From a bacterium (GTDB taxonomy: Bacteria; JAJVIF01; JAGGVT01), in contig JAGGVT010000058.1 of NCBI GenBank assembly GCA_021157815.1, positions 1-22,142 on the forward strand: 22,142 nt of DNA, given 5' to 3'. The position numbers and the translations under genes are program-made. This document shows, in pieces, positions 2,846 through 19,182 of the stretch. Under the pieces are notes generated by a model that worked only from the letters and a program-made list of their open reading frames with translations, was not told the DNA's origin and did no database searches. The first letter of the stretch is position 1; every line of letters begins with the position of its first letter.

Positions 2846-4509
2846 GAAAAGAAAATCACAATCAGCTGAATTAAAAATATCCTCATTATCACCGTTAGCG
2901 GATAAACAGTAGCGTATATCACATACGGCGCCTCGGATTCAGTGGAATCGACCGCGAACTGCAGCGCGGGCGGGTCTGTCATGCTGCCTGCGAGAAGGCC
3001 GCATATCGCGGTGTAGTTAAGCTTAAAAAAGAAACGCGCGGAGAATGAAACAACAAGTATGGGAATGATTGTGATTAGCGACGCTATCGCCATCCAGTAC
3101 AGACCATCCCCCTGTGTTAAAGTCTCAATAAACCTGTCTCCCGATTTAAGCCCGACACACGAGAGAAAGAGCGCAATTCCCATTTCACGAATCATGAAAT
3201 TAGCGCTCTTGGGGATATACCAGATTAACGGTCCAACCCGGGCAATCCAGCTGACAAACAGCGCGACAATAAATGGCCCTCCCGCGATTCCCAATCTAAC
3301 CGCCTCCGGCACTCCGGGCAGTCTAATTGGGACACTGCCGAGAAGCAATCCCGCGATAATCCCGATGAACATCGTCGCGAGTTTCGGATGGCTCAGCTCT
3401 TTTATCGAATTGCCAAGCAGACCGGAGATGCGCTCAATGGCATCAGGCGCACCGACAGCAATAACTCTGTCGCCATAATGCAGTTGAACTTTATGTGTCG
3501 GCGCGAACTCAAAACCCGACCTGATTATCCTCGTAATAACAACCCCGTGTTTTTGAAGGAAGCCTATCTCCCGAACCGCTCTTCCGATAAACCTGCTTTT
3601 TGTAACAATGATTTTTCTTGTAATTGAATTTGAGCGAAATCGGCTTAAATCGATTTCAATTTCCTTTCCCAAACCTATCAAAAACTTATCCAGGTTTTCC
3701 TGATTGCCCACAATTAAAAGAATATCGCCAGTGTTAATGACTGTTTTCCCCTGGGCAATAATAAGTTCATCACCTTTAACAATCCGAGAGATAACCACGG
3801 ATGATTCCCTAATAAACGGAATTTCAGAAACACGCAGATTGTCAAGATTGGGATTTGTTACTTCAATGCTCATTGTCGCAAGATGGCTGTGTTCGACATC
3901 ATTCTCATACCCGCTTGTTTCCACCTCGCGTTTGATATTTATCCTGAAGAGAATCCTTATCAGGATCATGGTGAGAATTACACCGAAGATACCGAAAGGA
4001 TAAGCGACCGCATACCCAAGTCCCGGCATTTGCCCCATCTGTTCTGTGTAACCGTGAAGATTTTTAAGCGCTTCCTGAGCGGCTCCAAGTGATGCTGTAT
4101 TCGTTGTTCCTCCTGCCAGAAGTCCAACCACTACCGGTATATCTATTCCCGCCAGATATGAGGCAGCCAATGCGGTCACCGCTCCCAGAACAACAATTGT
4201 CAGCGCCATTAGATTTAATTTTAATCCCTGTACCCGAAGGGCTGCAAGGAAACCGGGCCCTACCTGCATTCCTATGCTGTAAACAAAAAACACCAGACCG
4301 AAATTCCGCACAAAATCCAGCAGTTCATTGTTGATTGTGAGTCCAAAATGCCCGAATACCAATCCTGTAAATAGAACTCCGGCTATTCCAATTTTTACAT
4401 TAAAAATGCGAATACTGCTGATAACCAGACCAATTGACGCCACCAGTCCGAGTATAATCATGGATGACGCAAAGGAATCTGTGCTTATTAGTTCGCCAAG
4501 CCAGTTCAT
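2836..4509 (-). CDS. YidE/AspT-type membrane transporter with two RCK_C (TrkA-C) domains
   Basis: Inner-membrane secondary transporter of the aspartate:alanine exchanger (AspT/YidE/YbjL) family; the substrate is unknown. At 557 aa it matches the family length. Residues 1-190 are hydrophobic helices, about 205-285 and 290-370 are two soluble RCK_C domains (the stretches ending DILLIVG and DRVIAVG), and 375-557 is a second helix bundle. The internally duplicated signature appears as GLLAGGTTNTASLGAAQ in the first half and GLLAGSMTDPPALQFA in the second, as expected for this family. RCK_C domains usually bind small ligands and gate transport. The ATG at 4509 lacks an obvious Shine-Dalgarno sequence. 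The last codons (FFSEK, then TAG) lie in the right arm of the inverted repeat at 2742-2845. It is not a TrkA potassium-uptake subunit, because the RCK domains are embedded between two membrane halves. Confidence 0.88.
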   Translation of the reverse strand: MNWLGELISTDSFASSMIILGLVASIGLVISSIRIFNVKIGIAGVLFTGLVFGHFGLTINNELLDFVRNFGLVFFVYSIGMQVGPGFLAALRVQGLKLNLMALTIVVLGAVTALAASYLAGIDIPVVVGLLAGGTTNTASLGAAQEALKNLHGYTEQMGQMPGLGYAVAYPFGIFGVILTMILIRILFRINIKREVETSGYENDVEHSHLATMSIEVTNPNLDNLRVSEIPFIRESSVVISRIVKGDELIIAQGKTVINTGDILLIVGNQENLDKFLIGLGKEIEIDLSRFRSNSITRKIIVTKSRFIGRAVREIGFLQKHGVVITRIIRSGFEFAPTHKVQLHYGDRVIAVGAPDAIERISGLLGNSIKELSHPKLATMFIGIIAGLLLGSVPIRLPGVPEAVRLGIAGGPFIVALFVSWIARVGPLIWYIPKSANFMIREMGIALFLSCVGLKSGDRFIETLTQGDGLYWMAIASLITIIPILVVSFSARFFFKLNYTAICGLLAGSMTDPPALQFAVDSTESEAPYVIYATVYPLTVIMRIFLIQLIVIFFSEK

Positions 4510-5840: not shown

Positions 5841-8255
5841 ATGGCTAACCGTTTTTACAAAATATGGAGAGTTCTACTTATCTGGCTGCTTTTGATAGTC
5901 GCCTCCAATCTCCATCTGTTTGGATTGTATCATCTTAACCCGGACATCGCCTTTTTCATTCTAAGCCATCTATGCCTCCTGGCGATTTACCTGACATTCA
6001 GAAAAACATCCAAACCGTCTCATGTCATTTCACGAGTTACGATTATCCTCTATCTAATCTTCTCTCTTTGTTTCTGGCTGCACTTGAATATTATTGCCGA
6101 CTTCCTCATCGCCCGATTCCCAGACATATTCGAGCGTTTCTATAATTTCGCTTTCCAATATTCCAGCCAGTTGAAATCGACTTTCCTTATGCTTGCCGCG
6201 AATCTTGCCATGTGGGCGGTTTTAATATTGTCAACATGGAACGGAATCAGGAATGTGATTCACGAAGACGAGGACAAACCATCAAGTGAGATCAAGCCTG
6301 TCAATCTGATTTGGGTTTCCGCACTGGTTTTTATCGGGCTGATTTATTTCGCGCTTTTGCGACATAACACGTTTCACTCAAAGGCATGGGACCTGGCGAT
6401 ATTCGCGCAATTGATAGATAACTTCCGTCATGGCGTATTCTTTGAGGCAAACATTCGAGGCGTATCAAATATATTCTCAGACCATTTCACTCCGATAATT
6501 TACATTTTCTCACCATTGCTATATATCTGGAACGACCCGTCACGCCTCCTGCTTGTTGTGCAGGCAGCATTCATCACGCTTGGAGTGATTCCGACATTTC
6601 TAATCGCGCGTAAACGAACTAACTCACCAACAGTCGGATTCTGCATGGGAGTGGTTTATCTCCTACTGCCGACATTGCAGTACATGAACATATTCGATTT
6701 CCATCCCGTAGTGTTGTCAATCCCGCTGATGCTGTTCGCATGGCACTTCTGGGAATCCCGCCGATTTAGTTTAATGTACCTATTTCTTTTTCTCACGATG
6801 CTCTGCCACGAACAGATGTGGATAGTAGTCGGCGCATTAGGATTATATCTAGCACTTTTCGAGCGCGAGCGAATCAGGGGAATATCTCTTGCAGTTATCG
6901 GATGGGGCGGATTCCTATGCCTTGTACTTTGGTTCTTCCCCATGTTCAGAGGCGGTGAGGAGTATTTCTATGTCCACCGCTACGCCTACCTCGGCAACAG
7001 CATGGGTGAAATAATCAAGAGCATCGTAACCAAACCGCAGTTATGGCTTCCCCGTCTTGTCAGTCCTCAGGCGTTGATGTTCATTATCCTGATGCTTCTC
7101 CCTGTCGGATTTCTTCCGGCATGGCGTCCGAAATACTTACTCATTATTTTGCCGACATATTTCTACAGCGCGTTAAGCATAGAGAGCCTGCAAACATCCA
7201 TATTCGCCCAGTACGCCGCGCCGTACGTTCCGTTCGTGATTATCGCATCGATTTATGGTCTTGAAAGGATTTCAAAAAAGGCAAACCAGTTAGTGATATT
7301 AAAAAGCCTGGGCTTCATCGCGGTTTGCGCGGCGCTAATCGCGAATGTGTATTTCTCACCGTATGTTCATGGACGGGCGTATCAGTCGCAGCAGTTTATG
7401 GGAATATGGTCTTTAAGGCCCGATATAAATGCAATTAATGGAATTCCTGAGAACGTTTCGGTTTGCGCTGGGAGCAAATATGCTCCACACCTTGTCAGGC
7501 GTGATTTATACCTGTTGCCTGATTATAAAAAAGCGGAATACATCGTTCTGGATATTTCCGATTACCACAATTCAATTATGCATGAAAATATTCTGGAGAT
7601 ATTCAACCAGAAAGATCGAGTCATAAAAAAAGTGACACCACTCATTATCTTGAGAAAGATTCAAGGAGTACAAAATCAGGATAACCGAAACCTTGCCCTG
7701 TCCGATGGTTATTGTCTGGATGAACAGCAATATAAATCTCCTTTGGTTTTCCATCGCAAAAAGCCCAATTCAAACGCTGCTGATCTCTATCGCTCTGATG
7801 CGCCAATCCACATGGAACTTGGGATTTTAAATCCTGTTAGTTATTTAAGAAGCATGTCTGCGGAATTTGTCAAGGTCAGGGATACGGATGATCTCTTTTT
7901 CGGAGTGCTGATTTATCCCACCACTAAATCAAGGTCTTTATTTTACGGACAACCACCCATCTTTAACATCGTTAGATTCTGGTATGGACATAAATCAACC
8001 AGCGAATGGGAAACCGGTGAATGCTTGTCTCATGGTTTTAGATTGCCGAATGGAACGATACTTAACACTCGAAATCGAATACCTCCTTTATTTCTCCTAA
8101 TGCCAATTCCCGAGGATTACTCAAACACGCTCGAAGAATACATAACCGAAATGTCAATTCAGGAACGATGGCTGGGACGAATCTTCCACGACAGCACTAT
8201 CCCCAAAGATGGCTTCCGTGATGAATTTGAATTTGTGGAATATCCTGATGAATAA
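5841..8255 (+). CDS. DUF2079 polytopic membrane protein
   Basis: An 804-residue protein with about a dozen hydrophobic helices over residues 10-515 and a soluble C-terminal part (about 530-804). The family signature is present: WDLAIFAQLIDNFRHG (Asp184), then SDHFTPIIYIFSPLLYIW (Asp214, His215), and later LCHEQMW (His323, Glu324). Acidic and histidine residues in the outer loops of such proteins resemble GT-C membrane glycosyltransferases, but no activity is established for DUF2079. The C-terminal part has no recognised domain; it contains a short signature-like stretch, VSVCAGSKYAPHLVRRDLY, often seen in this family after the last helix. No clear ribosome site precedes the ATG. The stop lies 2 bases before a REPIN. 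The family call is good; the function is unknown. Confidence 0.8.
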   Translation: MANRFYKIWRVLLIWLLLIVASNLHLFGLYHLNPDIAFFILSHLCLLAIYLTFRKTSKPSHVISRVTIILYLIFSLCFWLHLNIIADFLIARFPDIFERFYNFAFQYSSQLKSTFLMLAANLAMWAVLILSTWNGIRNVIHEDEDKPSSEIKPVNLIWVSALVFIGLIYFALLRHNTFHSKAWDLAIFAQLIDNFRHGVFFEANIRGVSNIFSDHFTPIIYIFSPLLYIWNDPSRLLLVVQAAFITLGVIPTFLIARKRTNSPTVGFCMGVVYLLLPTLQYMNIFDFHPVVLSIPLMLFAWHFWESRRFSLMYLFLFLTMLCHEQMWIVVGALGLYLALFERERIRGISLAVIGWGGFLCLVLWFFPMFRGGEEYFYVHRYAYLGNSMGEIIKSIVTKPQLWLPRLVSPQALMFIILMLLPVGFLPAWRPKYLLIILPTYFYSALSIESLQTSIFAQYAAPYVPFVIIASIYGLERISKKANQLVILKSLGFIAVCAALIANVYFSPYVHGRAYQSQQFMGIWSLRPDINAINGIPENVSVCAGSKYAPHLVRRDLYLLPDYKKAEYIVLDISDYHNSIMHENILEIFNQKDRVIKKVTPLIILRKIQGVQNQDNRNLALSDGYCLDEQQYKSPLVFHRKKPNSNAADLYRSDAPIHMELGILNPVSYLRSMSAEFVKVRDTDDLFFGVLIYPTTKSRSLFYGQPPIFNIVRFWYGHKSTSEWETGECLSHGFRLPNGTILNTRNRIPPLFLLMPIPEDYSNTLEEYITEMSIQERWLGRIFHDSTIPKDGFRDEFEFVEYPDE

Positions 8256-16011: not shown

Positions 16012-18090
16012 TCACAACTTCTGCCGCGCCCGATGTTTCCCCCCACGCCTTTTCTTTTTCCTCCCTCGTTTACCCGGCTGCGATGCTTTCTCAGTTAGCA
16101 TATCCTCAAGCTGTTTTATCTCATCGCGAAGTTTCGCCGCTTTTTCAAAATCAAGAGTTTTTGCCTTCTCGAACATCTCACTTCTCAAGGCATCGATTAT
16201 TCCCGGTACCTCATCCGGTTTAAGGTCAATTCCCTCGAAATTGATGATTCTCTCGTCATCTTCTGAATCGAACTCAAGTTGTGCGGCGATATCTTTTATC
16301 GGTTTGACAATACTCTGCGGAGTTATCCCGTGCTCCTTATTATATTCCATCTGCTTTTCACGCCTTCGATTGGTTTCCCTGACAGCGCTTTCAATAGCCT
16401 TCGTGGATTCATTCGCGTAAAGAATAACCATCCCGTGAATATGTCTCGCGGCACGGCCCATGGTTTGGATCAAACTCGTTTCACTTCTCAAAAATCCCGC
16501 CTTGTCAGCGTCCAGAATTGCAACCAGGCTAACCTCGGGAAGGTCAAGCCCCTCTCTTAACAGGTTGATTCCAACAAGGACATCGAATTCACCAAGGCGA
16601 AGATCGCGCAGAATTTTGATACGGTCAATCGTGTCAACATCGGAGTGAAGGTATTTAACACGCATTCCAAGGCGAGTCAGGTATTCCGACAAATCCTCCG
16701 CCATGCGTTTTGTCAACGTCGTGGCAAGCACACGCTCATCTTTCTCAACCCGTTTCCTGATTTCCTCCATCAGATCATCAACCTGGTTATCCACCGGACG
16801 GATTATCACCGCAGGATCAACAAGCCCGGTTGGACGCACGACCTGGTCAACTATCTGCGAGGCATGTTCCATCTCATATTTCGCCGGAGTCGCGCTGACA
16901 AAAATACACTGGTTTATATATTTCTCAAACTCATCGAATCTCAACGGGCGATTATCCAGCGCGCTTGGAAGCCTGAAACCATAATCGACCAGATTCTGTT
17001 TACGCGACAAATCCCCCTTATACATACCGCCAATCTGCGGCACTGTTACATGCGATTCATCAATGAAAAGAAGAAAATCCTTCGGGAAATATTCAATCAG
17101 CGTCGATGGCGTTTCTCCGGGGCGGCGTCCGGAAAAATGGCGTGAATAATTCTCAATTCCGGAGCAGTATCCCATTTCCTGGATCATTTCAATATCGTAA
17201 TTCGTCCTCTCCAATATACGCTGGCGCTCAAGATGTTTTTCATTCTTCTCATAATAAATCAGCCTTTCCTCAAGTTCCTTGCTGATGTTCTTAATCACCA
17301 GTTCCTGCCTCTCCGGCAGGACAACGTAATGCGACGCGGGGAAAATGGTGATGTTATCCAGAATATTAAGAACTTCACCGGTAACATTATGGATTTGGCA
17401 TATCGACTCAATTTCATTTCCAAAGAATGAAATCCGGATTTGCATATCCTCATCGGGCGGATGCAGTTCGAGAGTGTCGCCTTTCATGCGGAAAGTGCCT
17501 CGCTCCAGTGAAACATCGTTTCTCAAAAACTGCATGTCGATAAGCCGCCTGAGAAGTTCTCTGCGTTCGATATCCTGGCCAACGCTGAGAGAAATCGATA
17601 TTTTCGCGTAGTCCTCAGGCGAACCAAGCCCGTAAATACACGAAACGGACGCGACTATAATGACATCAGTTCTCGATAAAAGCGCGCGAGTCGCCGCGTG
17701 TCGAAGGCGGTCAATTTCCAGATTGACATCTGAATCCTTCTCGATATACAAATCCTTATGCGGTACGTATGCTTCCGGCTGGTAGTAATCGTAATAGCTG
17801 ACAAAATACTCAACAGAATTTTCAGGGAAATACTCCCTGAATTCCTGCGCCAGTTGAGCCGTGAGAGTTTTGTTATGAGCGATAATTAGTGTTGGACGCT
17901 GTACCTGCGCGATTACATTCGCCATCGTGAATGTCTTCCCGCTCCCAGTTACACCAAGAAGTGTCTGGAAACGGTCACCGCGTTTCAGCCCATCGACCAG
18001 CTTTTCGATTGCCTCAGGCTGGTCACCTTGAGGTTCATAGCTCGAATGAAGTTTAAATTCCCGTTCTTCTTTTTTCAGCATATTAAGCAT
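16012..18090 (-). CDS. uvrB: UvrABC excision nuclease subunit B
   Basis: The damage-verification helicase-like subunit of nucleotide excision repair; it binds UvrA, then UvrC. At 692 residues it has the full family length. Walker A GVTGSGKT is at 46-53; the beta-hairpin that clamps DNA begins at [13 protein letters not shown] (98-110); DESHVT is the DEAD-box motif; SATPAKYE and the [19 protein letters not shown] and QTMGRAARH motifs follow. The C-terminal UVR motif (about 633-667, [20 protein letters not shown]) binds UvrC. The tail [17 protein letters not shown] is strongly basic and longer than in many homologues. The start at 18090 has no Shine-Dalgarno sequence; ATG at 18081 is an alternative. 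The upstream region is entirely repeats, beginning 12 bases before the start codon. Confidence 0.97.
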
Positions 18091-18102
18091 AATAATAAAA
18101 GA

Positions 18103-18242
18103 AAGTTAATAGGTTAGTAAGTTAGCAAGTTAGCAAGTTAGTAAGTTAGCAAGTTAGCAAGTTAGCAAGTTAGTAAGTTAGCAAGTTAGTAGGTTGACAG
18201 GTTAAATGGTTGTCAACATCATACTAACTTTCTAACCTATTA
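18103..18242 (+). repeat. 8-bp tandem array (AAGTTAGC type) with inverted end
   Basis: Thirteen contiguous 8-base units (18103-18206) of AAGTTAGC, AAGTTAGT, AGGTTAGT and close variants. After a TTGACA..TGTCAA stem (18194-18216) comes a short inverted stretch, CTAACTTTCTAACCTATTAA (to 18242), that pairs with the start of the array (TTAATAGGTTAGTAAGTTAG). The period of 8 is not a multiple of 3, and each unit carries TTAG, so it is not coding. There are no spacers as in CRISPR. On the uvrB strand TTGACA at 18211-18216 is a perfect -35, but the matching -10 would fall inside the array. Confidence 0.9.
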
Positions 18243-18245
18243 ATG

Positions 18246-18323
18246 TGTAACCCGGTGTCCCTTCACCGGGGTAATACGTGAATTCACCACCATTTTTCCC
18301 GGTTAATGAGAAACCGGTCTACA
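18246..18323. repeat. REPIN-like element, family A (copy 3)
   Basis: TGTAACCCGGTGTCCCTTCA plus CCGGGG, a short linker, then CCCGGTTAATGAGAAACCGG plus TCTACA. Same plan as 4792-4869 and 8258-8339. Confidence 0.85.
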
Positions 18324-18326
18324 AGC

Positions 18327-18366
18327 CAACCTGCTAACTTTCTAACTTTCTAACCTACTAACCGTT
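18327..18366 (-). repeat. Short 8-bp array in reverse orientation
   Basis: Five units: CAACCTGC, TAACTTTC, TAACTTTC, TAACCTAC, TAACCGTT. They are the reverse complement of the units at 18103-18206. Confidence 0.8.
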
Positions 18367-18373
18367 CCTAATA

Positions 18374-18399
18374 TGTAACCCGGTGTCCCTTCACCGGGG
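18374..18399 (+). repeat. Single REP-like hairpin, family A
   Basis: TGTAACCCGGTGTCCCTTCA followed by CCGGGG, identical to the first half of the REPIN at 18246. Confidence 0.75.
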
Positions 18400-18418
18400 T
18401 TTTCTGACATTAATCTCG

Positions 18419-18444
18419 TGTAGGGGCGCCGCTTGCTGCGCCCC
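18419..18444 (+). repeat. Single REP-like hairpin, family B
   Basis: TGTA followed by GGGGCGC, CGCTTGCT and GCGCCCC, a perfect 7-bp stem headed by GTAG. The loop sequence CGCCGCTTGCTGCGC recurs at 18477-18491. Confidence 0.65.
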
Positions 18445-18498
18445 GGCGTGCCGCATCAAACAAGATAAATTCAATACGCCGCTTGCTGCGCTCTGAAT

Positions 18499-18646
18499 CT
18501 ACCATGTTCTACCCACTTACGGGTGCCGCCCATACAGCCGTCTCGGCTTTATGGGTGACATGCTGCGATGTTACACATTTCACCCACAAATCACAAAAAG
18601 ACGTGATGTGTGGGCGGCACCCGAGAGTTATCGGGAGAATGGTAAA
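18499..18646. repeat. Large inverted repeat with nested stems
   Basis: The outer arms are 18500-18532 (ends GGGTGCCGCCCA) and 18611-18646 (starts TGGGCGGCACCC and ends GAATGGTA). Inside, AGCCGTCTCGGCT is a small hairpin and TGGGTGA (18552-18558) pairs with TCACCCA (18580-18586). It could extrude as a cruciform or fold as RNA. Bases 18647-18680 hold the CTTTTCAACAG arm also seen in family B. No coding frame is convincing. Confidence 0.7.
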
Positions 18647-18680
18647 TTAAAATCAACATGCTTTTCAACAGTCTCCCCGC

Positions 18681-18790
18681 TAACTTACTAACCTGCTAAC
18701 TTACTAACCTGCTAACTTACTAACCTGCTAACCTGCTAACCTGCTAACCTACTAACCTGCTAACTTGCTAACTTACTAACCTACTAACTG
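18681..18790 (-). repeat. 8-bp tandem array in reverse orientation, overlapping the mce stop
   Basis: Thirteen full units of TAACCTGC, TAACTTAC, TAACCTAC or TAACTTGC (18681-18784) plus a partial unit. On the minus strand they read as the same kind of AAGTTAGC/AGGTTAGC units as the array at 18103. The array is inverted relative to that one, and the last partial unit carries the stop codon of the epimerase gene. Confidence 0.9.
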
Positions 18791-19182
18791 TTCTTAACTT
18801 GCACCAGCTCAACCAGCACACCAAGACTCTTCGGATGCATGAATATTACCTTCGTATCATTCAATCCCTCAACAGGGTTATCCCCCAGAAACCTGAATCC
18901 ATTCGATTTCCCAATCTCGATATCAGACTCGATATCATCACTTTCAAGCGCGACATGATGCAGTCCCCCTCCTTTTTCATGTACGAATTTCCATATCGGA
19001 CTATTTTTATCAATCGGCTGGATTAGCTCGATAATAAGATTCTCAGTCTCAAACGGACACGCTATTACTCCGCTATCATCAAGTATATGAACCTCAGGCT
19101 TATCCATTTGAAGAACTTTCGACCACAGCGCACACGACTGCTCTATATCGCTTACCGCTATTGCCAAGTGATTTATTTTCAT
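18784..19182 (-). CDS. mce: Methylmalonyl-CoA epimerase (VOC superfamily)
   Basis: Interconverts (S)- and (R)-methylmalonyl-CoA between propionyl-CoA carboxylase and the B12-dependent mutase; cytoplasmic and metal-dependent. The 132 residues match the family. MKINHLAIAVSDIEQS places the first metal ligand at His5; IIELIQPIDKNSPIWKF is the mid-motif; GGGLHHVALESDDI gives His75/His76; FMHPKSLGVLVELVQ ends the fold with Glu125. A strong ribosome site, GGAGGT, lies 4 bases before the ATG. It stands alone; the mutase and carboxylase are not in the window. The final VKNS and stop run into the octamer array. A generic glyoxalase is less likely because the spacing and the KSLGVLVEL motif fit the epimerase. 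Confidence 0.9.
   Translation of the reverse strand: MKINHLAIAVSDIEQSCALWSKVLQMDKPEVHILDDSGVIACPFETENLIIELIQPIDKNSPIWKFVHEKGGGLHHVALESDDIESDIEIGKSNGFRFLGDNPVEGLNDTKVIFMHPKSLGVLVELVQVKNS

Follow-up and report, generated by a model that had tools for sequence, protein, structure and literature searches.

Two genes on the reverse strand of the window, by which we mean the whole stretch of 22,142 nucleotides analysed here, flank a gap of 700 bp: uvrB (16012..18090) and mce (18784..19182), the latter encoding a glyoxalase-fold, methylmalonyl-CoA epimerase-like protein. The gap holds four runs of the octamer GTTAGYAR. The array adjoining uvrB lies on the forward strand (18105..18192) and contains 11 units, with two more decayed units extending to about 18208. 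It starts 14 bp upstream of the uvrB ORF, its GTTAG strand directed away from that gene. At the opposite end, an array of 14 units on the reverse strand (18677..18788) adjoins mce, and the TAG stop codon of mce is itself part of its first unit. Arrays were thus present at both ends of the gap, where the original prediction had placed them. The thirteen units that it counted on each side can be recovered next to uvrB if the decayed units are included; strict counting gives 11 and 14, and the proposed equality of unit number fails either way (11, or 13 with decayed units, versus 14).

Two shorter runs lie on the reverse strand within the gap. One (18328..18363), already described as a five-unit reverse array, consists of 4-5 units, two of them GTTAGAAA; the other is a remnant of 2-3 units (18221..18243) that had been missed. 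REP hairpins had also been proposed between the arrays and were located. Two copies of the REP-like hairpin GTAACCCGGTGTCCCTTCACCGGGG, assigned to family D4 and 97% identical to each other, occupy 18241..18272 and 18369..18400, the second being terminator-like on the forward strand. A large hairpin, GGGTGCCGCCC...GGGCGGCACCC (18521..18622), belongs to a dispersed element that occurs in the prophage copy L197 (described below) as well, and a further REP-like hairpin, CCGGTTAATGAGAAACCGG (18298..18318), was read from the sequence and its family counted in sampled contigs. Altogether, the interval 18241-18622 and many sampled contigs carry at least five REP-like hairpin families (e.g., CCCGGYGTCCCYTCRCCGGG, CACCATGCTTTAGCATGGTG and GGGTGCCGCCC), three of which show a 3-4.6-fold enrichment close to octamer arrays, at distances of up to 500 bp. 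Among known RNA families, a single tRNA was detected in the window.

In two same-class homologues of mce the protein terminates at nearly the same position, give or take a few residues; judged by these, the stop codon marks the natural C-terminus, and truncation of mce by the array was rejected. None of three same-class genomes carries an array upstream of uvrB, and mce is not adjacent to uvrB in the loci fetched from them. In genome G001, the uvrB homologue (L193) has an in-frame TAG where its relatives carry a sense codon, reflecting either an assembly error or a broken gene.

Matches to GTTAGYARGTTAG with at most one mismatch numbered 28 in the window versus 0.03 in shuffled sequence, which excludes a chance origin of these arrays, as had been suggested. 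Within the unit, fixation exceeds 98.9% at positions 1-3 and 7; position 6 varies between C and T, and position 8 between A and G. Positions 6 and 8 are linked (CAG 363, TAA 227, CAA 124, TAG 115; P 2e-31). Neighbouring units tend to alternate: units are least often identical at lag 1 (0.21) and most often at lag 2 (0.41), so that a 16-bp double unit is a likely copying step. Arrays of at least four units carry stops in all six reading frames in 62 of 63 cases.

The octamer arrays are a genome-wide family and not a quirk of the uvrB-mce gap. The assembly to which the window belongs (G000; 3.2 Mb in 221 contigs, 91% complete) gave 878 forward and 1,088 reverse matches to a four-unit pattern, counted in overlapping registers, and 0 to a reversed-pattern control, at odds with the single isolated occurrence that the original prediction had named as its counter-case. 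We sampled 80 stretches of this assembly, three of them masked, and in the 1.46 Mb used we found 66 distinct arrays totalling 7.6 kb, with a median of 13 and a maximum of 40 units. Extrapolation from this sample gives about 145 arrays in the genome. Distribution among bacteria is patchy: three same-class genomes yielded no match, even with a loose pattern, and only one of 385 sampled genomes (G258) did, besides the window's own. Contamination was rejected as the cause of this patchiness, since composition is homogeneous and array-bearing gaps are distributed over contigs as length predicts (19 contigs versus 20.1 expected).

Placement of the arrays relative to genes is strict. Among arrays on the coding strand, 30 of 32 start between -21 and +14 nt from a stop codon, where uniform placement in the same gaps, with the limit set at +15 nt, predicts 9.2; the maximum reached in 200,000 simulations was 18. 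In the first sample, all 19 stop-facing coding-strand arrays start between -13 and +8 nt from the stop (4.7 expected). In a second sample, drawn from further contigs partly taken by number and with some choices unchecked, 13 of 15 fall within -21 to +14 nt and 9 of 15 within -13 to +8 nt. Gene calls were ORF-based, and scoring was restricted to gaps with an ORF of 80 aa. The L126 array, which overlaps contig C1 at its end and represents the same locus, was left out of the combined statistics. Twelve arrays begin before the stop codon ends, and the repeat thereby supplies all or part of the stop, as in mce. TAG is the stop at 19 of 30 arrays, against 251 of 940 (27%) overall (P 4e-5), an excess partly explained by the repeat carrying its own TAG. 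Four arrays lying further from a stop come after an intrinsic terminator (L112, L159 and L221) or after a gene for tRNA-Phe (L213); what anchors an array thus appears to be the point where a gene unit ends, and not the stop codon alone.

Orientation is equally constrained. In gaps between genes of the same direction, 27 arrays lie on the coding strand versus 5 that do not (P 1e-4). Where both orientations occur in one gap (the window, L113, L174, L227 and L242), the order is always forward, then reverse, which means that every GTTAG strand is directed away from the adjoining gene; arrays near start codons likewise read away from the starts. Most arrays are single and begin at a gene's stop codon, and the pair framing the uvrB-mce gap is therefore an atypical layout in this genome.

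The family has also entered a prophage. A scan of viral contigs identified L197, a phage contig that encodes terminase, portal, protease and capsid proteins; arrays sit directly 3' of the stops for portal, protease and capsid. The portal gene matches one on contig C167 of the window's own genome at 100% identity, and the two copies are 99.7% identical, with 30 substitutions in 11.6 kb. We rejected L197 as an independent strain; being the same prophage as C167, 30 SNPs apart, it provides no more than another assembly or a close haplotype. The only internal indels between the two, of 120 and 40 bp, both fall within arrays and correspond to exactly 15 and 5 octamers. This comparison supports change of array number by whole octamers, although one assembly may have collapsed the repeat and the apparent change could in part be such a collapse. 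Adjoining the prophage on C167, a 923-aa ORF contains a 126-bp repeat in six copies (L252, 2447-3203).

The original prediction had attributed the framing arrays to inversion or copying. When each array is counted from its own gene, the two have the same succession of C and T at position 6 through 11 units (TTCCTCCCTCT), a string absent from every other sampled array; shuffling gives a probability of about 0.001 for this shared order, in one pair and by one test picked post hoc. The copying idea is supported to that extent. Position 8, in turn, is unlike in 7 of the 11 units, and overall unit identity of the two arrays (0.909) is not above that of unrelated arrays (mean 0.916). Recent whole-unit copying between them is thus not supported. 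The differences at position 8 imply that any copying is old or that change has been biased, and an old inverted copy is probably the simplest reading of this single pair. Exact copying of arrays across loci was rejected, as the longest common unit runs are no longer than in shuffled arrays.

The suggestion that the arrays could pair across some 480 bases and form a hairpin fared well. The best arms are 101 nt long, 90% complementary and 484 nt apart, and the mce-to-uvrB strand is predicted to fold at -346.6 kcal/mol (z -20.8 from 20 shuffles). The predicted stem of ~100 bp begins at the mce stop and ends just short of uvrB. Differences between the arms keep G-U pairs (a reverse wobble) in 7 of 8 cases, a count that is not significant and comes from one such pair; it is suggestive of change that preserves G-U pairing.

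Arrays of related units, found by similarity search, follow the same layout elsewhere; such a search indicates that the layout recurs, with no implication for its frequency. G258, an unrelated genome, has 112 matches of the looser octamer GTTNGNAN (control, 1), with many facing pairs of 4-5 units separated by short loops and usually 20-47 bp from the flanking genes. Its loci L268-L287 show facing pairs of 4-5 octamers GTTNGTAN with TGCAAGAA ... TTCTTGCA-like shoulders, and look like compact hairpin elements. On phage contig L253 (54.5% GC), GTTAGAAG units at about 6680-6745 start 7 nt past the stop of a capsid-like gene and end before the ribosome-binding site of the next gene. Phage contig L198, of 61% GC and from another host, carries three heptamer/octamer arrays (3785-3849, 4402-4454 and 7682-7714), each starting at a gene's stop codon and built of units that contain TAG or TGA.

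Several known repeat systems resemble these arrays in part. With head-to-tail units whose number changes by whole units, the family belongs to the general class of long simple sequence repeats (LSSR). Phase-variation repeats change in the same way, but usually involve differing units at single contingency loci, whereas here one unit recurs at an estimated 145 sites outside ORFs. CRISPR arrays are distinguished by their spacers, which are absent between these head-to-tail units. The short tandemly repeated repetitive (STRR) heptamers of heterocystous cyanobacteria are likewise genome-wide, intergenic and arranged as short tandem arrays; the present arrays differ from them in sequence and in their period of 8, and no cyanobacterial link was seen. 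REP/BIME elements are also dispersed in intergenic regions, some within 15 nt of stops, and REP-like hairpins occur within the uvrB-mce gap itself. REPs, however, are single, GC-rich and imperfect palindromes of about 20-40 nt, while this family consists of arrays of a non-palindromic octamer; it is the separate hairpins of the gap that have REP form. In E. coli, only ~11% of the REPs found by RepRanger are no further than 15 nt from a stop (PMC12306157).

The closest counterpart in the literature is a family of direct heptamer repeats, TAACTGA, known from marine Beggiatoaceae, Cyanobacteria and Bacteroidetes (MacGregor 2015, PMC4679880). Both families comprise many intergenic tandem arrays, some of them long, of one short stop-containing unit whose length is not a multiple of three, strongly oriented relative to genes and patchy in taxonomy. 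In the best-studied genome, that of a giant Beggiatoaceae, TAACTGA repeats have 2-6 copies and abut start codons, not stops (PMC4679880). The arrays studied here are made instead of an octamer, with a median of 13 and up to 40 units and two linked polymorphic positions, and they begin at stops (30 of 32 on the coding strand) where TAACTGA arrays point to starts, so neither the unit nor the placement is that of the TAACTGA family. Stop-anchored octamer arrays were not found described in the literature searched, which covered few subscription journals.

Our preferred explanation, to which we assign a probability of about one half as a whole, is that GTTAGYAR arrays form a copied family that starts at gene boundaries, grows and shrinks by whole octamers, gave rise to an inverted copy in the uvrB-mce gap and serves as gene-end punctuation. 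Copying would have carried the arrays into many intergenic gaps, where they went on to lengthen and shorten by whole octamers; occurrence of the same octamer at scores of unrelated loci, a prophage included, argues for such spread over independent local slippage. Each starts at a gene boundary, often supplying the stop, and extends outward from there. In the uvrB-mce gap, among the few in this genome to carry arrays at both ends, the arrays face each other, probably because one is an inverted copy of the other, and a transcript running from mce to uvrB would fold them into the ~100 bp stem from the mce stop codon. They may persist as gene-end punctuation, closing all frames and marking the 3' end, with pairs forming a stable 3'-end stem, and so may benefit the cell; since most arrays are single, the stem cannot be the general function. 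No enzyme able to move the repeat was found, and spread by a telomerase-like enzyme or reverse transcriptase was rejected, as the 91% complete genome gave no RVT_1 match.

It is possible, if less probable, that the octamer is selfish or neutral DNA devoid of function, spreading by recombination and favouring gene ends that are TAG- or A-rich. Its absence from all three genomes of the same class and from almost all of the 385 sampled, its invasion of a prophage, its change by whole units and the crowding of other repeat families into the same gaps would all fit. Simple tolerance, however, predicts arrays anywhere in a gap, so it alone fails to explain the tight anchoring (9.2 of 32 expected near stops, 30 seen), and targeting of TAG is insufficient for the anchor because arrays also lie downstream of terminators and a tRNA gene. 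A rather unlikely extension of the punctuation idea is that outward, stop-anchored arrays are read, as RNA or DNA, by a dedicated protein or by Rho, in a system that arose in, or was passed on among, unrelated bacteria and phages; the shared layout rule and related units of G258, L198 and L253 point in this direction. Unlikely, too, is a role as directional transcription insulators, in which a polymerase running from the gap into a gene would transcribe the CTAAC strand into a C-rich, G-poor, unstructured RNA on which Rho could load, stopping antisense or read-through transcription at the borders of genes with sense transcription untouched. The CTAAC strand is indeed 32.5% C and 7.1% G, the genome encodes Rho, polarity is outward at stops and, in facing pairs, at starts, and in the structural operon of the prophage the arrays are found on the sense strand and would not terminate the operon transcript. 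Against this, YC dinucleotides are sparse in the octamer, and the 14 bp between the uvrB array and its ORF contain no promoter-like site, so that terminating transcription at this array would silence uvrB.

Ribosome stalling is reported at REPs situated no more than 15 nt from a stop (PMC12306157), and an analogous stem equally close to the stop could slow ribosomes or shield the 3' end of the mRNA, in the manner reported for REPs of E. coli, the facing arrays being an exaggerated form. The predicted stem starting at the mce stop and the compact hairpins formed by facing arrays in G258 are consistent with such control, which we nevertheless consider quite improbable, given that most arrays in the window's genome are single and would form no stem, and that those of G258 usually lie 20-47 bp from genes. 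An assembly artefact or collapsed repeat is highly improbable: arrays do occur at contig ends, 6 of 66 lying within 60 bp of the end of a stretch, but most are internal with unique flanks, the array sequence in the prophage portal gap is identical in two assemblies, and the octamer obeys a sequence-specific rule relative to genes.

Bacterial short tandem repeats tend to be regarded either as contingency loci or as intergenic clutter that lacks an explanation. In this genome a single octamer marks the 3' ends of genes throughout, with strict polarity, and has entered a prophage. The rule, to start at a stop and point outward, is testable, the estimated ~145 loci serving as natural replicates, and offers a plausible way to tell apart three possibilities: that the arrays restrict transcription, that they label the ends of mRNAs, or that they just use gene ends as safe sites. 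The same genome contains tandem arrays of other periods: 17 at L148 (12658-12962), 19 at L126 (1-132) and 18 at L123 (12889-13081), the last of which reads as a lysine/alanine-rich coding repeat.
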